The notes below the pieces were generated by a model that made no database searches, was not told where the DNA came from, and saw nothing but the letters and a program-made list of their open reading frames with translations. This document shows positions 23,973 to 33,190 of a stretch of 64,000 nucleotides of DNA, in pieces. Position numbers and translations under genes: made by a program. The stretch covers positions 155,142-219,141 of the forward strand of contig JAJYFL010000004.1 in the NCBI GenBank assembly GCA_021790935.1, written 5' to 3'. How positions within the stretch are numbered: the first letter of the stretch is position 1; each line of letters starts with the position of its first letter. The DNA is from a bacterium. GTDB lineage: Bacteria > Vulcanimicrobiota > Vulcanimicrobiia > Vulcanimicrobiales > Vulcanimicrobiaceae.

Positions 23973-24081
23973 CGGTCGCCTCCTCCGCTTCTCCCGGAGA
24001 ACTCCGCTACCTGAAGGATTCTACACCAAAGCGCGGATGCCCACGCGGAGCCGGTGGCCGCCGCATGGAACTCCCCCGACT

Positions 24082-24432
24082 ATGCCGCAGGCAGAGTTGC
24101 TCGGATTGGGCGGCGCCTTTATCGCGGGCGTCGTATTCGTGGTGGTCGCCGCGTGGCCGCGCCGGGCCGCGGTAGGCGACCTCCCGCCCGATCTCGGCGC
24201 ACCGCCCGAAGATATTTACTGGCCGCTGCTGCTGGGAACGGGCGAGCGGAGCTTCGAACCGAGCATGCGCCTGCGCATTATCATCGAGCTCGGCAGGCGC
24301 GGCGAAGAATGGTGCGTCCCGGTGCTGCTCTGCGCGAGAGAACAGGAGCACGACCCGGCTCTGCTCGCCGCTATCGACCGCGCGCTGGGACCGGTCGGGC
24401 GGCCGGTCTTCGCGCCGCCGCCTGCACGGTGA
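24082..24432 (+). CDS. small membrane-anchored hypothetical protein (116 aa)
   Basis: ATG 24082 opens a frame with one N-terminal membrane helix (LLGLGGAFIAGVVFVVVAAW) and a cytosolic helical part. The latter has RLRIIIELGRRGEEWCVPVL and PALLAAIDRAL, which look like one or two HEAT-like helices. It is 7 nt from the next gene on the same strand. No family recognised. Confidence 0.6.
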   Translation: MPQAELLGLGGAFIAGVVFVVVAAWPRRAAVGDLPPDLGAPPEDIYWPLLLGTGERSFEPSMRLRIIIELGRRGEEWCVPVLLCAREQEHDPALLAAIDRALGPVGRPVFAPPPAR

Positions 24433-24439
24433 ACGCGCC

Positions 24440-24880
24440 GTGACGGCCGTCACGTACTACCTCGCAGCGGCGAGTGCGGGCGCGTACGCCGCCGGAGCGC
24501 TCCTCGTCATCGCGGGACGCTGGCGGATCTCGCTCCGAGCGCCGCAGCTCGTGCTTCCGGCGATCGCCTTCTTCCTGCTCGACCGCTACGTGAGCGAGGG
24601 CCGCGCCGTCACCTCGATCCTCGCCGCAGCTTTGCTCGCGGCCTCGCTGCTCTCGATCGCTTCGCGCCCGCCGCGCTCGATGCTCGCGGCGATCTTCGCC
24701 GTCGCGCTGGTCGCGACGATGCTGGACGTCGTGGTCGCGGGGTTCTTCAACTACACCGACGCGGGCGCGTTGCGCGCGGCGGTTCCCGTTCTGCTTGCGA
24801 TTCCGGCATTCGCCGCCGCCGTGGCGGCGCTCTTGGCGATCACTTCCCCCATCCGAAGATACGGTCGATCAGAGTCGTGA
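24440..24880 (+). CDS. hypothetical integral membrane protein (146 aa)
   Basis: The GTG start at 24440 gives a protein made almost entirely of membrane helices, about five (near residues 5-27, 35-50, 57-74, 79-105, 110-135). It is coupled to the preceding small membrane protein with a 7-nt spacer, so the two probably act together. Its 3' end overlaps the convergent barrel gene by 41 bp. No motif points to a function. Confidence 0.6.
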   Translation: MTAVTYYLAAASAGAYAAGALLVIAGRWRISLRAPQLVLPAIAFFLLDRYVSEGRAVTSILAAALLAASLLSIASRPPRSMLAAIFAVALVATMLDVVVAGFFNYTDAGALRAAVPVLLAIPAFAAAVAALLAITSPIRRYGRSES

Positions 24881-27800
24881 GCGTCACGTACAGGCCCTTG
24901 CGCTGTGGAGCGCCGGTCAGCGTGGGGTCCGCGGCGGTCGAGAGGTTGTACCCAACGGCCAGTCGCGCGCTGTTCCCGAGCTGGTAACCGACTTCAACGG
25001 CGAGATCGCTCGTCCGCCCGCCCGAAACCTGCGGAACGAAGATTTGGCGGAGCGCCGCACCAACGTCGAAGCGCGGGCCGAGGTTTTGCCGCGCTCGCAG
25101 GGAGAGCATCGCCGTTCGCGCCACATAGTAACCGCCTCCGTCCAATTTATACGCGGCGCGGCCGGCCAGCTCGAATCCGCCTCCGGGCCGGAATATCTCT
25201 TCGAGCGACGCTACGTCGCCCAGAGAGCCGAAGGCGTAACCGTTTCCGGTGGTGCGCCGGTAGTCAAAGAGCGAGATGAAGCGATCGTTCCGCGCGGGCC
25301 GGTACGCGAGCGAGAGCCGGTCGTTTATCGCAACGTTGCCCGGGGAATACGCGTGCGCGATCGTTCCGACGATGGAGACGTTGGGTGAGATGTGCCCTGC
25401 GATTCCACCGGAGAGTGTCGACCCGCCGGCAAAGCCGCTGCGGGTCTGGTATCCGAGCGACGCACGCAATGTGCCGGCATTGGCATAGTCGAGCACGCCA
25501 CCCCAGACCGAAAACCCCTGCGCGTTGCGCCCGACGGCGGCTGCAGACTGCACGAAGAAGTTTCCGCCGAGGTCGTGCCCGATCTTGAACTTCTCGTGTA
25601 CCCCAAGCGCGCTGTAGATATCCTTGCTGCTGCCGGTTCCATCGATGAGATAATCCGAGCTGACGGTCGTCGCGGGGCTGAGCGCGCGCTCGAATCCGAT
25701 CTGCGTGGATCGGGTCGACGCGCTCCCGTACATGAGGTTCGCCGTCGAATCGGCAAACGACGAGGCCGGTTGGTCGCTCAGTAACTCGCGTACGTAGAAA
25801 CGGCCGTGCTTCTTCAGATCGTACGAGAGCTGCGCCATCGTCTGCGTCGGCATCGTCGAACCGGCGTCTTTCCCTCCGACCGTCAGGTTCTGCTGCACGT
25901 GGAGCGCCAGCCGATCGGTGGCCTTATAATCGACGCCGAGTTGCACCTGCGATTGGGTCCCACTCGCAAACGCGGGAGCTCCGGGCGAAGGTGCGGCGGT
26001 CGGCCGCGTCTGGGGTGTTCCAATGCTCTGCCGGTGTTCGTCGAAACCAAGCAATACCGAGAGACGCCGGCTGAGAAACCGCTGGAACGCTACGGTAAGA
26101 TCGCCTTGCGCGGCAGCCTGACCGAATCCGCGATTCGTTTGCCCGTCGACCGCGATGCTGAGCGAACTTCGATTGGGCGTTGCGCGCGTCCACGCGAGGC
26201 GGTACGACTGAAGCCCGGGCGCGGAGAGACCGCCGAATGGGTTCGCGAATCCTGAAGAGGTGCTCTCGTAGGATGCATCGAGCCGATCGCGCGGCGTGCT
26301 CTCGGTCAACATGAAACTCAACGCGTCGCCTCCCGTCCCCGCGGGAAACGGATCGATCGGATTCGGAACGGCTCCACGACTGGTCGCGTGCGTCAGCGTC
26401 CATCCTCCGCCACGAAGTTTCTGAGATATGGACTGCGAGAAGAGCGCAAAATTCTGCGAGCCGTTGGCGTCGTTGATGTATCCCAGCCGCAGTTGCGTGG
26501 CGCCGCCGCGCCCGATGCCGAACTGCACGCTGCCGCCCGTCGTTCGCGAACGCACGCCCGGACCTTCATACTGATAGGTGATCTCGATCGCCTGTGGGTT
26601 GAAGCGGTCGTCGTACGGCAGCGGAATGTTGATGAAACGCAGCGTCCCCGTCGCATAGTCGATCGTGTAATCGACGTTGCGAATGAGCGGCGTCTGGGCG
26701 ATAACCGCGCCGGTTCGCCGGTCGAGGGTCACGAGCGTGAGGTAATCCGAACCGACGACGATATCCGGCTGCAGCGGCTGCGGGATCGTCGAGAGCCCCG
26801 TCACCGGAACGGTCGTCGCCACATACGCGACGTCGTCGCGCGCCGTGAACGCGAGCACGCGGGTGCGCCCCCCTCTACCCGCCGTTACGTCGACCTTGGC
26901 GCCGCTCAGCAACTCGTGAAACGCAGCGACGTCCGGCATCCCCGTATCGGCTACGAACTGGCCCCACATGGCGCTATCTCGCCCGCGGTCGATGCGCGCG
27001 TAGAGATGATCGTTCGAGTGGAAGTCGCTCGAAAGCGTAGACGAGTCGCCGTACGTCAGGTACGGGCGCTCGTTCGGGTCCTGGACGTATGGGCCGAACG
27101 ACGAGACGGGCGCGAGCCGGTTCTGCGATTCGTATGCGATCGTGGCCAGCGTCCTCTTGCCGATCTGACCGGTCGCAAAAAAAGCCAGACGCTGGCGCTT
27201 GGAACCACCGCCGTCGTAAAGGCCGTCGCCGTTCACCGGTCCGGGCACCGCACCCATGCCGACCGAAGCCAAGCCGTCGACGATCGGCTTGCGCAGGAAT
27301 GGATAGACGTAAAACTCCTGGGTCTCGGAGATCTGCCCGGCGATCACGTGCAGCTCGATCCCACCCGGAAGCAAACCCGGTACGATCGGAATATCGACGA
27401 CTCCGCCGACGCCGAGCGGTTGCTCCACGGCGCGGCCGCGCGCGCCGGCTTCGGGCGCAGGCGTTGCGGCCGGTTTGCTCGGAGCGCTTTCGAAACGCGC
27501 GTCGCCGCGCACCAGCGTCACGCGGACGCGCGCGCCCGGCATCGCGGCATGGTCCCAGCGGTCGAAGACCCGGATGGTCAGGTGCCGGGCGGTCGTGCCG
27601 TCGGCGACGAGCGGAGCCGAGAGTGCGACGCGCACCGAAGCCGGTTCGCCGGGGCCGTAGATCGTCTCGGAGATCGTCTCGCCGCGCGCGCCGCGCGCGC
27701 CCAATCCCGTCGCGGTCACGGTGTTGGGCCCCGGACCGACCGGAACGCCGTAAAAGAAATACTGCGTCTCGCCGGTCTTGACGTTGACCGTGCGCTTCCC

Positions 27801-28133
27801 GAGATGTTCGAGCGAGACGATCTCACCATCGACCGCCAACTCGACACCGGCACCGCGAACGGTCGACACCGTGACTTGGGCCGCCGAACTCGGCGACGCA
27901 TAGTTCTCCGCGGGGCTCACGAACGAGACGGGCAACGCGCCCGTTGCCGTATACGTGAGATGCGTGAGATCGCCATAGCGCATCCCTCCGCCTTTCGCAC
28001 CCGCGCCCGCTACGGCGCGGACGGCGACCGGCACGGGCGCGACCGCCGAGAGCGAGAACTCGTGCGTAACGACGACGAGCAAGGCCGCCACGCCGAGCGC
28101 GAACGCGCGGTTCGGCGCGGTCGCGCGCCTCAC
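24840..28133 (-). CDS. large outer-membrane beta-barrel protein, last gene of DUF11 operon
   Basis: This 1097-aa protein starts with GTG 28133 (GTGA overlap with the upstream gene) and a signal/anchor region (about 1-45). Two or three beta-sandwich domains follow (about 50-290), one with a plug-like YFFYGVPVGPGPNTVTATG. Then comes a long region of alternating strands (about 290-1097) ending in a hydrophobic strand typical of barrels. It contains RNVDYTIDYATGTLRFINIP near residue 485, a motif style I associate with large surface proteins exported beside DUF11 proteins. I infer an outer-membrane anchor or translocation partner for the three exported proteins encoded upstream. It is not a TonB receptor by any visible plug motif. 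Confidence 0.55.
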   Translation of the reverse strand: MRRATAPNRAFALGVAALLVVVTHEFSLSAVAPVPVAVRAVAGAGAKGGGMRYGDLTHLTYTATGALPVSFVSPAENYASPSSAAQVTVSTVRGAGVELAVDGEIVSLEHLGKRTVNVKTGETQYFFYGVPVGPGPNTVTATGLGARGARGETISETIYGPGEPASVRVALSAPLVADGTTARHLTIRVFDRWDHAAMPGARVRVTLVRGDARFESAPSKPAATPAPEAGARGRAVEQPLGVGGVVDIPIVPGLLPGGIELHVIAGQISETQEFYVYPFLRKPIVDGLASVGMGAVPGPVNGDGLYDGGGSKRQRLAFFATGQIGKRTLATIAYESQNRLAPVSSFGPYVQDPNERPYLTYGDSSTLSSDFHSNDHLYARIDRGRDSAMWGQFVADTGMPDVAAFHELLSGAKVDVTAGRGGRTRVLAFTARDDVAYVATTVPVTGLSTIPQPLQPDIVVGSDYLTLVTLDRRTGAVIAQTPLIRNVDYTIDYATGTLRFINIPLPYDDRFNPQAIEITYQYEGPGVRSRTTGGSVQFGIGRGGATQLRLGYINDANGSQNFALFSQSISQKLRGGGWTLTHATSRGAVPNPIDPFPAGTGGDALSFMLTESTPRDRLDASYESTSSGFANPFGGLSAPGLQSYRLAWTRATPNRSSLSIAVDGQTNRGFGQAAAQGDLTVAFQRFLSRRLSVLLGFDEHRQSIGTPQTRPTAAPSPGAPAFASGTQSQVQLGVDYKATDRLALHVQQNLTVGGKDAGSTMPTQTMAQLSYDLKKHGRFYVRELLSDQPASSFADSTANLMYGSASTRSTQIGFERALSPATTVSSDYLIDGTGSSKDIYSALGVHEKFKIGHDLGGNFFVQSAAAVGRNAQGFSVWGGVLDYANAGTLRASLGYQTRSGFAGGSTLSGGIAGHISPNVSIVGTIAHAYSPGNVAINDRLSLAYRPARNDRFISLFDYRRTTGNGYAFGSLGDVASLEEIFRPGGGFELAGRAAYKLDGGGYYVARTAMLSLRARQNLGPRFDVGAALRQIFVPQVSGGRTSDLAVEVGYQLGNSARLAVGYNLSTAADPTLTGAPQRKGLYVTLTTLIDRIFGWGK

Positions 28134-30295
28134 CGTACCGGCTCCAACGCGAAGTCGATCTCATCCATGACGCCATCGTCGAAGATGCCGTGCACGAGCC
28201 GCTGCAACGAGCGGTTGGAGTTCATGCGCGCGCCGCCGTAGGGCCGCGCGTTCGCCGGCAGCGTGCTTGCGTCCAGACGCAAGACGTGCATGCCGGGCCG
28301 CACGCCGGGAAACGAGTAGCGGCCCTGCGCATCGGTGACGGCCGACGTCCCGTCTTCGAGAAAGATGCGCACGCCCGGGACACCCGTATCGCCGCGTGTG
28401 AATCGCCCGGTGCGCATCGCGTCGATGAAGACTCGCCCGACGATAACGCGCCGCTGCGAAAACGCACCGGCGACGACGCGCACGCTGGCGGACGAACTTC
28501 CGGAGAATGCCGAAGTCGTTCCGGGGATAGTTGCGTTGACGATCGCCGTGTTGTCGAGGATCGTGCCGTCGGCGACTGACGGATAGACGATCGCCGCATA
28601 TTCGATCGTATGGTTCGCGCCGGGCGCGAGAGCCGGCAGGGTCCAGGTGAGGAGGCGCCCTCGAACCGTGGGTTCGGCCGGAGTACCGTCGAGCCGCCCG
28701 CTCCCGGTTCCGTACACGAGCCCCGCCGGAAGGGTATCGGCGACGGTCGTGACCCCGACCGGGGCGTTCGTCGCGTTCGAGAACGTCACCGTATAGAGCA
28801 GTCGATCGCCGGGCTGCGCGATCTGCCGGTCGACGCTCTTGCTGACGACGATGGTTCGCGATGCGAAGAGCGGCACGTTCCCGAACAGACCGACGACGTC
28901 GTCTAGCGTGACGGCCTTGGTCGTGAGCGCGTAACCGCCCGCGACGGCGAGCGGCTGGCCGTCGAGTGCCTTCGCCGTCACGTCGTATAAAGAAGCGCCG
29001 AGCGTCGGAAGTATCGTCAACGCAATCTTGCGGTTGAGGTATCCGGGCGCAGCTATCGTCAGGTAGAACTGCGAGCCGCCCGCCGCGATCGCCGAGGGCG
29101 ACAGCGCGAATCCATAGAGGCCGGAGGGGCCGGTAATCAGCGGATCCTGTGCGTTCGCGTTCGCGCTGCCGCTCGCGCCGCGCACCGCGCTCGCTTGCAG
29201 CGCCGGCAGTTGACCGTTCGCCGCGAGCAGCGTTACCGTCGCGCCCGCTACCGGGGCTTTCTGACCGGCCAGCCCGCTGTAGACTTCGTCGGCAGTTCCG
29301 AGGAGGACGCTAGCGGGCGTCGTGTTCTGCGCGGCGATGCCGTCGGCCGAGATCGACGCCACGTTGACGATCGTCTGGCCGACCGCGTCGCCTTGAAGCA
29401 CCGTTGCCACGAACGAGACGTCCAGCGTAGCGCCGGCGGCTAGCGCTGGGACGCGGACGGTCAGCATCTGCCCGGAGAGCGCTGCGGCGGCGCCCGCAGG
29501 CGTGCCGTCGATATTGACCGTCGACGCGGTCGTCGCGAGCCCAGTCGGAAGCTGGTCGCTAACGACGACGTTGGTCGCCGGAGAGCCGCCGCCGTTGACC
29601 GCTACGATATCGAACGTCACGCTCCCGCCCGGCTGCGCCTGCACGATCGTCGATCCATCGACCGATTTGAGCACCGGGGCGTTCGGCCCGGACGGGCCGT
29701 GGAGCTGCGGCCCGGTTGCGGTCACCACCCACTGCTCGCCGGTATCGCTCTGCAGGCCGTTGTTCGTCCCCGTCGCCGTGGTCTCTGCGGTAAGCTGGAT
29801 CGGGATCGACTGACCGACCGAGAGGCCGGCCGTTGAAGCGACCACGACCACGTCGACGCTGCCACCGGGCTGCACCGCCGGCGAGACGCTCGACGTGGCC
29901 GGACCGATCGGAGCGCCGGCCGGCGTAACGAACTCCGCCGAGACCAAACGCAGCGCTCCGGTGGTGAGCGATGTGACGCGATATGCGTCGGCGATGTTGC
30001 TGGTGTTGGTAATGGCGAAGGTGCGCGTCGCGTTCTGGCCCACCGCGACGCCGTCGGTCGTGGAATTAGCTTGCGTTTCTTTGGGCGTAACCACGAGTGC
30101 CGCAAGCTTCGCAATCGTCGCGGTTACGATGTTGGAGGTGATAGCATAGTTGCGATCGGTCGCGTCCGCAAAGGTCGCCGAGACCGTATTGCTGATCGCC
30201 GTGCCGCCCGGCAATGCACCGGCACCGCACAGCCCCGGCGAGAGCCAGAGCAGCACGGCGAAGATCGCTACGAGCTGCCGGGCCGGAATCCGCAC
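28130..30295 (-). CDS. exported DUF11-repeat protein with SdrD-B-like domain
   Basis: This 721-aa protein starts with GTG 30295 after GGAGAG and has a signal peptide (about 1-27). The N-terminal module NTVSATFADATDRNYAITSN resembles one in the next gene. DUF11-type Ig domains follow, with the signature P-G-x-x-x-x-Y-x-x-x-x-x-N at GDRLLYTVTFSNATNAPVGV and PDGLP-type VADTLPAGLVYGTGSGRLDG. Near the C-terminus an SdrD-B-like collagen-binding-type domain reads GVPGVRIFLEDGTSAVTDAQ then GRYSFPGVRPG. Such proteins are usually surface adhesins or fibre stalks. It overlaps the barrel gene by 4 bp. Confidence 0.65.
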   Translation of the reverse strand: MRIPARQLVAIFAVLLWLSPGLCGAGALPGGTAISNTVSATFADATDRNYAITSNIVTATIAKLAALVVTPKETQANSTTDGVAVGQNATRTFAITNTSNIADAYRVTSLTTGALRLVSAEFVTPAGAPIGPATSSVSPAVQPGGSVDVVVVASTAGLSVGQSIPIQLTAETTATGTNNGLQSDTGEQWVVTATGPQLHGPSGPNAPVLKSVDGSTIVQAQPGGSVTFDIVAVNGGGSPATNVVVSDQLPTGLATTASTVNIDGTPAGAAAALSGQMLTVRVPALAAGATLDVSFVATVLQGDAVGQTIVNVASISADGIAAQNTTPASVLLGTADEVYSGLAGQKAPVAGATVTLLAANGQLPALQASAVRGASGSANANAQDPLITGPSGLYGFALSPSAIAAGGSQFYLTIAAPGYLNRKIALTILPTLGASLYDVTAKALDGQPLAVAGGYALTTKAVTLDDVVGLFGNVPLFASRTIVVSKSVDRQIAQPGDRLLYTVTFSNATNAPVGVTTVADTLPAGLVYGTGSGRLDGTPAEPTVRGRLLTWTLPALAPGANHTIEYAAIVYPSVADGTILDNTAIVNATIPGTTSAFSGSSSASVRVVAGAFSQRRVIVGRVFIDAMRTGRFTRGDTGVPGVRIFLEDGTSAVTDAQGRYSFPGVRPGMHVLRLDASTLPANARPYGGARMNSNRSLQRLVHGIFDDGVMDEIDFALEPVR

Positions 30296-30314
30296 GGGAG
30301 CTCTCCGATGACGA

Positions 30315-32708
30315 TTACTTCACCGTAACGGTGAATGTAATCGCCCCCTGCCACCCTTGTGTACTCGAGAAGCTGCCGCCGTTGTATTTCTCTGGAACGA
30401 GTTGGAAGCTTGTACCGCCGACCTGGTCGGTGAACTTCGTATCGCTCGCGGCAAACGTGCCGGTGCCGGATCCCGCCGGGAAGCCGGTATAATATGTGAA
30501 GACGCCGCCCGCCATCGTATCCGTCGGCTGCGTTATCGCGCTCGCAAACGTCGCCCAATTGTTCTGCGTCGTGGAGGAGACCGTCACCGTGGTTCCGTCC
30601 TCGTCGACCGCGAACGTCCCCGCTTTGGTCGTCGCATACGCAAACGACTGCGTGTTGTCGCTCGTGCCCATCACCAGGTTGCGGTAGTCGACGGTATAAC
30701 TGATGACGCCGCCCGGACAGACGAAGGTACTCGACTGTTGCGAGACGCCGGACGGGCAGCCAGTGGACGCGATCGTCTCCGATTTCGTCAGCGCGACGAA
30801 GCCCGAGTAGAGTTCGTCGTGCGTGTCGTTGCTCTGCGCGCTGCTTCCCACGCTGACGGCGTGCACCAGCGCGTCGAAGCGCTCGAAGTACGGGGTTGCG
30901 ATCGGAACGACGAATTTGACGTAATAGGTGAGCATCGCGCCCGACGCGACCGCCACGTTGCTAGCCGTCGCCGAGGGGCTGCCGTCGGTCGCGCCGCCCA
31001 GCGCCACGCTGCACGCGTTGTCGGAGTAGACGCCGACCTTCCAGCCCGTTACGGGAGTGCCGCCGCTGGTGGCGGGAATCGGATAGGCCGTCGGCACGTT
31101 CGCGGTGATGTTGTAGTCGTCGTTGAGGTTGCCGCTGTTCTGCAGCTCGTTCGGGACGCAGAGCGTGACGGCGGCGCTCGTCGTCGCGGTGGTCGCGGGC
31201 GTACCGGGCGTCGTACTCGTGTTCTGGACGTTGTCGGCGGCGACTCCGAACGGGAACGCGGTGAAGTCGTCGTTCGTGCTGGTCGCCACAATTCCGTCGT
31301 AGGAGCCGGAAGATCCCGGGAAGCCGAGCGGCCCGTTTAGTGCGCCGTACTGCGAGAGCGCGCTGTTGCTCGTGGTGTTCGATGCGCCCGGGACCACGGC
31401 GCCGGTGTAGTTGATCCCCTCTCCGCTCACCGTCAGCGCCGTGCCGCTCGCGCTATCGGCCGTCCCGCCGGGGATGCCCGGCCCCAGGATATGTTCGGTT
31501 GACTGGTTGTCGCCGATGACGCCGTCGGCAATATTCGAAACGGAGCCGGCATTGCCCGCACCGGCTCCCGTGGGTTGCGCGACGACGAACGACAACGTCA
31601 CCGCAGACTGCGAACTGACGCTCACCGTGCCGGGCGTGGTACCCGGATCGGAGCAGAGTTCGAGTCCCGCGGTACCTCCGCAAGATCCGCCGTGGATGAA
31701 GACGGCGATATACGTCACCGAGCCGTTGGTCGGCAGATTGCCGGTTGCCTTGATCCAATTACTCGACCCGCTGGAGTTGGTCGAGTAATAGAGATCGGCG
31801 ACGGCTCCCGAGGCAAAGCCGTACGTCGCGTTGGAAGTGACGGTCACGGCACCGGAGTTTGCGAGCGCCAGCGGTGCGCCGCCGAACTGCGGAACCCTGT
31901 CGCTAATCAGCACGCCCGGGGTCGCCGCCCCGAGCAGCGTCTGCGCCGAAAGCAGGTCTTTCGCACCGAATTGACCGCCGTTGTTGGCGTAAATCGTATA
32001 GGTGATCGCGCCGGTCGTTCCATTTTGCGCGCTGGTCTTATACAGGTCGAGCCGCGCGTCGGCCAGCACGTTATTGGTCTCGGTAGCGGACTGCGCCGCC
32101 GACGTCTCGGCCGTCGCCGAGCCAACCGCCGCTTGCGTGATCGTAGCCGTCACGGTCGAAGAGACCGTCTTGCCGGAGCCCGCCGGTGCCGTCGTCGCAA
32201 GCGTATAGTACGCGGAAACGACGACCGAGCTCCCGATCGCGATCTGCTGGCCCGCAAGGTAGGTATTCAACGCTCCATACGTCGCGTATTTCGTGGTCGT
32301 GCCGCCGATGGTCACGGCGTATTCGCAAGCGCTGCCGCCGCACGCCGTACCCCCGTCGCCAAGCGTCGCCGAACTCGCGTCCGTTCCGCCCAAGACCGCG
32401 TCGGCGGTCAACTGGAAGTCGCCGCTCGCGTTACCCGTATTGACCAAGGTATAGGAATCGGTGACGATCTGACCGGGAGCGTAGTTCGCGCCGGTCCCCG
32501 CCGCGTTCGTTAAACTGGGTGCGTTCTGCACGGTGATCGTGACGATATTCGACTGCGTCTGGTAGCTGTTGCCGCCGGAGTCCTGGTAGGTCGCGCTGGC
32601 CGAGTTCGTGATGCTGGTGTTGGGCGGCGTCGCGGCCTGCGCCAATCTCACGGCGGAGAGGCAACAAGAAATCGCGCCGATGAGTATCACCGCGCGCAGG
32701 GTTCTCAT
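30315..32708 (-). CDS. large exported DUF11-like surface protein (797 aa)
   Basis: The signal peptide (MRTLRAVILIGAISCCLSAV) is followed by NTSITNSASATYQDSGGNSY, a module shared with the 721-aa neighbour. The rest is Thr/Ser/Gly/Ala-rich beta sandwiches with few charges and scattered Cys pairs, for example SGCPSG-type CPSGVSQQSSTFVCPGGVIS. No membrane segment except the signal. It looks like a structural surface protein. It overlaps the 161-aa gene upstream by 4 bp, and is separated from the 721-aa gene by 19 bp, so all four are one operon. Confidence 0.6.
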   Translation of the reverse strand: MRTLRAVILIGAISCCLSAVRLAQAATPPNTSITNSASATYQDSGGNSYQTQSNIVTITVQNAPSLTNAAGTGANYAPGQIVTDSYTLVNTGNASGDFQLTADAVLGGTDASSATLGDGGTACGGSACEYAVTIGGTTTKYATYGALNTYLAGQQIAIGSSVVVSAYYTLATTAPAGSGKTVSSTVTATITQAAVGSATAETSAAQSATETNNVLADARLDLYKTSAQNGTTGAITYTIYANNGGQFGAKDLLSAQTLLGAATPGVLISDRVPQFGGAPLALANSGAVTVTSNATYGFASGAVADLYYSTNSSGSSNWIKATGNLPTNGSVTYIAVFIHGGSCGGTAGLELCSDPGTTPGTVSVSSQSAVTLSFVVAQPTGAGAGNAGSVSNIADGVIGDNQSTEHILGPGIPGGTADSASGTALTVSGEGINYTGAVVPGASNTTSNSALSQYGALNGPLGFPGSSGSYDGIVATSTNDDFTAFPFGVAADNVQNTSTTPGTPATTATTSAAVTLCVPNELQNSGNLNDDYNITANVPTAYPIPATSGGTPVTGWKVGVYSDNACSVALGGATDGSPSATASNVAVASGAMLTYYVKFVVPIATPYFERFDALVHAVSVGSSAQSNDTHDELYSGFVALTKSETIASTGCPSGVSQQSSTFVCPGGVISYTVDYRNLVMGTSDNTQSFAYATTKAGTFAVDEDGTTVTVSSTTQNNWATFASAITQPTDTMAGGVFTYYTGFPAGSGTGTFAASDTKFTDQVGGTSFQLVPEKYNGGSFSSTQGWQGAITFTVTVK

Positions 32709-33190
32709 CTAACGCGCACCTCGTAGAAGTAATGGAAGACCGCCTTCGGGGCGAGCGCGCGGCTCGTGCGCCAGCGCACCGCGACGTACGCCGAGGCAGG
32801 TGCGGGTCTTCGTACGAGGCCATGAGGAGTCTTCACGGCGACGGTCGGGCGGACGGACCAGGTCTTACCGTCGAGCGAGTACTCGAGCACCGTCTGTGGC
32901 GCGGGGCTAGCGCTGCCGCTGACGTAGCTCGTGCCCTTGGGAACCGGCCCCACCGTTACGAGCCTCAGTGCGGCCGAGGTGCCCCTATTAACCGCGGCGA
33001 TCGTATAGCGGACCAGGTCGTTCTTCTTGAGTACGACCTTAGCGACCGGGATCTGCACGGTCCGGCCGTCCGCCTGCTTGGCGATCAGCACACCCGTCAA
33101 ATGCAGTGCGATTACCGGCTTGCCGAGAGCGACGGCTCCGCATCCCAACCAAGCCGCGAGCAACAATGCTCCGGCGCGAAAGCGATCCAT
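32705..33190 (-). CDS. small exported DUF11-like protein (161 aa), first gene of operon
   Basis: A signal peptide (MDRFRAGALLLAAWLGCGAV) precedes one DUF11-like Ig domain with LKKNDLVRYTIAAVNRGTSA and VTVGPVPKGTSYVSGSASPA, ending with WRTSRALAPKAVFHYFYEVR. It heads the four-gene exported-protein operon, 130 bp downstream of the nuoN stop. It may be a chaperone-like or minor subunit of the same structure as the larger DUF11 proteins. Function unknown. Confidence 0.6.
   Translation of the reverse strand: MDRFRAGALLLAAWLGCGAVALGKPVIALHLTGVLIAKQADGRTVQIPVAKVVLKKNDLVRYTIAAVNRGTSAALRLVTVGPVPKGTSYVSGSASPAPQTVLEYSLDGKTWSVRPTVAVKTPHGLVRRPAPASAYVAVRWRTSRALAPKAVFHYFYEVRVR

Follow-up and report, generated by a model that had tools for sequence, protein, structure and literature searches.

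A conserved four-gene cluster pairing a very large predicted outer-membrane barrel with putative isopeptide-locked stalk proteins in Eremiobacterota and other phyla

The window analysed here, meaning the whole stretch of 64,000 nucleotides, belongs to a bacterial genome of 2.65 Mb (98.8% complete) whose close relatives with names are Candidatus Eremiobacterota/WPS-2. Between 24840 and 33190 the list of open reading frames places four adjacent genes on the minus strand, encoding proteins of 161, 797, 721 and 1097 residues that we call p161, p797, duf721 and barrel1097. An earlier note, made from the letters alone, had described four coupled genes with signal peptides, and the frames lie exactly where it put them. 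The junctions p161/p797, p797/duf721 and duf721/barrel1097 measure -4, +19 and -4 bases, for which reason we consider the genes coupled, and all four proteins open with a hydrophobic, signal-like stretch, as read by eye from the sequence. The features of the cluster, with the basis of each assignment in brackets, are as follows:

32705..33190, minus strand: p161, small exported DUF11-like Ig-domain protein, first gene (ORF, DUF11, homologues)
30315..32708, minus strand: p797, exported string of Ig-like beta domains (AF2 model, fold matches)
28130..30295, minus strand: duf721, exported stalk protein (Pfam/NCBIfam, profile match to 9IFR)
29318..29677, minus strand: duf721 DUF11 domain 1, putative triad K210-D247-N311 (homologue conservation)
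28517..28849, minus strand: duf721 DUF11 domain 2, putative triad K486-D520-N582 (homologue conservation, 9IFR alignment)
28271..28435, minus strand: duf721 SdrD_B-like domain, aa 621-675 (Pfam 29.6 bits, just below the cut-off of 29.7)
24840..28133, minus strand: barrel1097, very large predicted outer-membrane beta-barrel with N-terminal beta domains (AF2, fold matches, amphipathicity)
27264..27956, minus strand: barrel1097 N-terminal beta domains, aa 60-290 (AF2 pLDDT mostly ~80-92)
26559..27281, minus strand: barrel family signature region, aa 285-525 (alignment A6)
24876..24902, minus strand: C-terminal beta-signal RKGLYVTL, last strand of barrel1097 (cross-phylum alignment)

Scans for promoters and terminators at the cluster gave no signal above chance. 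The flanks hold NuoL/M/N-type complex I subunits, a TPR protein and an aldo-keto reductase. A convergent plus-strand frame for a membrane-type protein (24440-24880) overlaps the 3' end of barrel1097 by 41 bases and, like its neighbour at 24037-24432, has no Pfam family. The genome encodes an Omp85/BamA-family protein, and a typical LPS outer membrane has been seen by electron microscopy in a cultivated member of the phylum (PMC9758169). The earlier note had seen no sortase beside the genes, and a search of the entire genome with PF04203 returned no match, with positive controls matched.

The domains of duf721 run in the order NTxSAT module, DUF11, CarboxypepD_reg-like, DUF11 and SdrD_B-like. 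The NTxSATxxD module at its N-terminus (TAISNTVSATFAD) has a counterpart at the N-terminus of p797 (NTxSATYxD; TSITNSASATYQD), just as had been noticed from the sequence. Two stretches match DUF11 in Pfam (E=4.6e-20, 72.5 bits against a cut-off of 24.6), and NCBIfam finds the isopeptide-forming fimbrial domain RrgB_K2N (E=7.4e-14). DUF11, DUF7933 and SdrD_B have been named as isopeptide families, and the isopeptide bond is proven in the DUF11 ('CLIPPER') domain whose crystal structure is 9IFR (PMC12617251); the duf721 profile matches this structure with E=9.1e-5. In the first DUF11 domain K210, D247 and N311 are each kept in 22 of 22 homologues, with a spacing that is CLIPPER-like when compared with PMC12617251. 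The second triad aligns with the Lys, Asp and Asn of 9IFR, and its residues are retained in most homologues (K486 and D520 in 20/22 each, N582 in 21/22). We predict from these alignments that duf721 is a stalk with putative internally cross-linked DUF11 domains. The SdrD-B-like domain that the earlier note had proposed is a real match, but one that falls just short of the Pfam threshold. It directly precedes the barrel where the two proteins are fused, and the same domain order is seen in a gammaproteobacterial fusion (L089 6764-12934). Conservation tends to be highest in duf721 (mean pairwise identity 46%), and the four proteins evolve at relative rates too similar to settle the matter.

Calling the exported proteins DUF11 proteins, as the earlier note did, proved right for duf721 and, by a small margin, for p161 (25.0 bits against 24.6 in Pfam), but not for p797, which has no DUF11 match and no significant Pfam family. 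We found no meaningful sequence relatives of p797 among solved structures. Its AF2 model (pLDDT 78.4, pTM 0.62) is almost entirely beta, with fold matches to integrin alpha (legs), RTX adhesin repeats and the CupB6 tip adhesin, and the protein is predicted on this basis to be a string of Ig-like domains, not a recognised DUF11 protein. The amphipathicity of its strands is not clearly beyond chance. The columns of K224, D270 and N386 are conserved in p797, but they are spaced by 46 and 162 residues against 33 and 91 in CLIPPER, and we do not claim an isopeptide bond for this protein because the spacing is so unlike. The C-terminal domain (aa ~617-797) is conserved, and a genome-wide search of the host showed p797 to be its sole carrier. 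Homologues of p161, at 31-50% identity, stand first in order in 22 Eremiobacterota loci, and its HMM finds matches in clusters of Gammaproteobacteria, Cyanobacteria and Deinococcota; p161 lacks the isopeptide Lys-Asp-Asn residues.

The largest protein, barrel1097, matches no family in Pfam or NCBIfam and has no meaningful sequence relatives among solved structures. The earlier note had taken it for an outer-membrane barrel, and the AF2 prediction, made from 25 homologues and of moderate confidence (pLDDT 68.2, pTM 0.51), supports this: the model contains ~32 long antiparallel strands starting at aa 513. Its best fold matches are outer-membrane barrels, LptD first, with FimD, MtrB and siderophore receptors lower in the ranking, at low Foldseek TM-scores of 0.10-0.20. 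Strand amphipathicity is 2.32 against 1.43+/-0.18 in shuffled sequences, a value reached by none of 500 shuffles. The C-terminal beta-signal follows the pattern G-x-x-[hydrophobic/aromatic]-x-[hydrophobic], in which G1080 is invariant in all 14 cross-phylum barrels. Model, fold matches, amphipathicity and beta-signal together argue for a predicted outer-membrane beta-barrel; its closure and number of strands are not fixed by the model, given the pTM and the TM-scores. The second of the N-terminal domains is Big_1/Invasin_D3-like, and matches to these families occur in 4/25 barrel homologues and also in cyanobacterial relatives. The stretch most conserved over four phyla in alignment A6, the cross-phylum barrel profile that we also used for genome sampling, is aa 285-525, with the signature motifs YxTYGDxS..SxDxLYxRxDxGRxSxMWGxF and GSDxxxL..DRRTG..L.R..DYxIDYxxG.L.F.

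The barrel family was found in 30 of 148 related genomes, a patchy distribution. We counted gene order at loci that include a long barrel together with its upstream DNA (intact flanks), using tblastn and reconstruction of open reading frames. The order p161-p797-duf721-barrel is kept on one strand at all 22 such Eremiobacterota loci, the window being the 23rd (23/23). This colinearity is far beyond chance, and supports the earlier note in treating the four genes as a unit. The genes flanking the cluster differ at many loci; nuoN, the TPR protein and the aldo-keto reductase recur, so the conservation of the cluster is in part vertical inheritance.

Directly downstream of the barrel, most Eremiobacterota loci carry a fifth exported gene that is absent from the cluster in the window. 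It is long and highly variable, its product being glycine-rich in several relatives or carrying DUF11, and by blastp and tblastn several of the fifth proteins have the same C-terminal domain as p797, joined to N-terminal parts that are different. The fifth gene of the window's cluster may have been lost to another site, or may never have been present. Elsewhere in the host genome, a 481-residue protein (G000:C17:26018-27463; L064 9018-10463) that stands alone between an MFS transporter and tsaD is 45% identical to the fifth gene of one relative (L047). The same genome holds a pair of adjacent large DUF11 proteins of 1255 and 1100 residues (G000:C33:93436-100887; L063 6436-13887) with no barrel of the barrel1097 family adjoining.

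Some Eremiobacterota loci are built differently. At one (L061; G047:C43:12000-31000) duf721 and the barrel are fused in a single frame of 1663 codons and p161 lies on the opposite strand, an arrangement that is intermediate between the split and the fused forms. Three loci in other genomes of the phylum (L058, L059 and L060) hold a paralogous barrel class of ~990 residues that lacks p161, p797 and duf721; directly after this barrel comes a large protein carrying DUF7933 isopeptide-type repeats, 7 of them at L059 and 3 at L060. Barrels of Eremiobacterota type are also found in an assembly titled Rhodospirillales bacterium BOG_genome_mining.22 (CAJCIN01; L084, L086). The matching genome (G017) falls within the family to which the window belongs, so this title is probably wrong.

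The cluster recurs in at least four phyla, namely Eremiobacterota, Deinococcota, Cyanobacteria and Pseudomonadota (Gammaproteobacteria). Among GTDB genomes, scanning turned up distant barrels in a Thermaceae MAG (L090) and a Granulosicoccaceae MAG (L089), the latter with a p161-like gene (161 aa), a p797-like gene (1022 aa), a duf721-barrel fusion of 2056 aa and OmpA-family genes in that order. Plasmid searches added relatives in Cyanobacteria and in alpha-, beta- and gammaproteobacteria. Sampling with A6 found matches in 52 of 86 Deinococcota genomes at E<1e-30 (55 at E<=0.001) and in 35 of 299 Pseudomonadota genomes at E<1e-50 (49 at E<=0.001, some of the weak ones being matches to the Ig domain only). 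We inspected 20 A6-matched loci for gene content. The four genes are present in unchanged order at 6/6 Deinococcota loci checked; at both cyanobacterial loci (2/2) all four are present in the order p797, p161, duf721, barrel, so that p797 and p161 have changed places. In several Gammaproteobacteria p161 and a p797-like gene accompany a fused duf721-barrel, and other Pseudomonadota have a giant DUF11/SdrD_B protein and the barrel alone. Existing annotation of these relatives is piecemeal (DUF11, OmpA family, TonB-dependent receptor, hypothetical).

Fusions of duf721 with the barrel occur in the Granulosicoccaceae genome, on an Acinetobacter plasmid (L091), at other Pseudomonadota loci and at the Eremiobacterota locus L061. 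Since the two are one chain in many Gammaproteobacteria, they very probably function together as one complex, to judge from these sequences. Giant DUF11/SdrD_B proteins lie beside the barrel in Devosia (L092), Eleftheria (L094) and at L138, L140, L142, L144 and L146. A putative isopeptide-domain stalk (DUF11, SdrD_B or DUF7933 proteins) is the barrel's constant companion, as suggested by the conserved duf721 triads and the DUF7933 proteins beside the paralogous barrels. On a plasmid of Synechococcus sp. NIES-970 (L093 7945-12573) an OmpA-like domain is fused to the C-terminus of the barrel, and OmpA-family genes lie downstream of gammaproteobacterial barrel genes; OmpA-type domains typically bind peptidoglycan.

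We read the cluster as encoding a surface fibre with internally cross-linked domains on an outer-membrane platform, with the large barrel as anchor and possibly exporter, and give this reading a probability of about one half. All four proteins would reach the periplasm via Sec, and BAM would fold barrel1097 into the outer membrane. There duf721 would form a rod whose Ig-like domains are locked by isopeptide bonds between Lys and Asn, with the N-terminal Ig domains of the barrel as its docking site; in many Gammaproteobacteria it is the N-terminal half of the barrel chain itself. The platform would carry p797 and p161, as well as the variable fifth protein at loci that have it, giving an extended adhesive or coating fibre whose exposed part is probably p797 with the fifth protein. 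Most likely the barrel acts as an anchor; it may serve as an exit route as well. The earlier note had the barrel anchoring or exporting the DUF11 proteins as a surface structure. The tie between them is borne out by conserved order and fusion, and anchoring and complex formation are well supported, but we infer the surface location, export, the order of assembly, passage through the barrel and adhesion. Counted against the fibre are the moderate confidence and low TM-scores of the barrel model, the N-terminal position of duf721 in the fusions, which would suit a periplasmic stalk equally well, the patchy occurrence of the barrel and the lack of isopeptide residues in p161.

The barrel could also be a secretion pore of two-partner or usher-like kind, which we hold possible but doubtful, with p797 and the fifth protein as cargo, p161 as periplasmic escort, duf721 as periplasmic gate and the C-terminal domain common to p797 and several fifth proteins as recognition signal. 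The differing N-terminal parts attached to this domain and the high variability of the downstream gene argue for a pore; a barrel modelled with at least ~32 strands could let folded domains through, and 3/14 barrel members show a weak local match to the SprA-translocon motif (best E 1.4e-4). In the window's protein, however, this motif amounts to 23 residues and 12.9 bits against a curated cut-off of 200, and no usher, POTRA, T9SS or autotransporter domain was found. Moreover, p797 alone carries the C-terminal domain within the host genome, so there is no cargo set, and a general cargo-sorting domain is disfavoured. A structural barrel whose duf721 and p797 stalks remain periplasmic and link the outer membrane with the cell wall seems less likely still. 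The N- and C-termini of outer-membrane barrels are normally on the periplasmic side, and the N-terminal fusion of duf721 could equally be compatible with a stalk lying wholly in the periplasm, where its tendency to be the most conserved protein would fit a buried partner. The OmpA-type domains fused to or beside the barrel in Cyanobacteria and Gammaproteobacteria point the same way, yet the Eremiobacterota operon has none, and the long, variable and in several relatives glycine-rich fifth protein is more like an exposed one. The known DUF11/CLIPPER proteins whose domains have been crystallised or imaged are, moreover, fibres or hooks on the cell surface (PMC12617251, PMC13319060). That the barrel is an uptake porin or a receptor served by accessory binding proteins is very improbable: homologues from Devosia and other plasmids bear the automatic label 'TonB-dependent receptor', but the plug or TonB-receptor Pfam domain is found in 0/25 members, there are no conserved transporter genes, and the constant partners are stalk proteins.

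The domains of the proposed fibre are of a known kind, and neither a name nor a description of the barrel family or the four-gene cluster was found in Pfam, NCBIfam or the open-access literature searched. The earlier note's idea of an undescribed assembly system holds to this extent, but the cluster is widespread and not peculiar to the window or its host genome, occurring commonly among Deinococcota, Cyanobacteria and Pseudomonadota. It is a recent finding that DUF11 domains are fibre domains locked by isopeptide bonds, and the ways of holding or exporting such fibres at the outer membrane are known mainly for OmpA-type and T9SS-type anchors. The cluster offers a candidate for a platform devoted to this task, namely a barrel of very large size, without a family in Pfam or NCBIfam, that is constantly paired with putative isopeptide stalks. 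In our samples ~60% of Deinococcota genomes and ~12% of those from Pseudomonadota carry the barrel, so the idea is open to experiment in tractable laboratory bacteria, for example Thermus or Deinococcus. More speculatively, and with the odds well against it, the barrel might be the outer-membrane machine of an unrecognised ancient secretion and assembly pathway common to all four phyla, exporting Ig-like and isopeptide-locked proteins and building a surface fibre from them with no chaperone, usher, sortase or secretion ATPase of a known type.

Set beside known systems, the cluster is not a chaperone-usher, T9SS, autotransporter, two-partner, TonB-receptor or sortase system. Chaperone-usher pili likewise have exported Ig-like subunits beside a large outer-membrane barrel gene, and FimD is among our fold matches; the subunits here, however, are long multi-domain chains, and Pfam detects no usher (PF00577) in the barrel and no PapD-type chaperone domain in the cluster. 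SprA/Sov of the T9SS resembles barrel1097 as a very large single-chain barrel and by the short local motif (TIGR04189), to which the likeness is confined, and homology to SprA was rejected. No T9SS partner and no match to a C-terminal sorting-domain model was found in the cluster, and a T9SS-like sorting domain in p797 was also rejected, its C-terminal domain being unique within the host genome. Pfam domains of autotransporters, two-partner secretion (POTRA) and TonB receptors or their plugs are found in none of 25 barrels. Intimin and invasin (inverse autotransporters) share with the cluster a Big_1/Invasin_D3-like Ig domain on the same chain as a barrel, but intimin has an N-terminal 12-strand barrel, whereas here the Ig domains precede a C-terminal barrel with ~32 predicted strands. 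The Acinetobacter fil operon (FilF) was also compared, with nothing pointing to kinship.

Two further parallels concern the fibre. The GhpA/GhlA grappling hooks are extended fibres of DUF11 Ig-like beads (PMC13319060), as we infer for the cluster from its genes, but each is a single giant protein (49 DUF11 domains in GhlA), a barrel partner is undescribed for the hooks, and signal-peptide-independent secretion has been proposed for them. Among the fibrillar CLIPPER adhesins of Gram-negative bacteria (DUF11, PF01345; PMC12617251), that of Acinetobacter silvestris (9IFR) has the same K-D-N residues as the two DUF11 domains of duf721. This adhesin is one chain ending in an OmpA-like anchor, whereas the anchor of the cluster would be a very large barrel, separate from or fused to its stalk, accompanied by p161 and p797.
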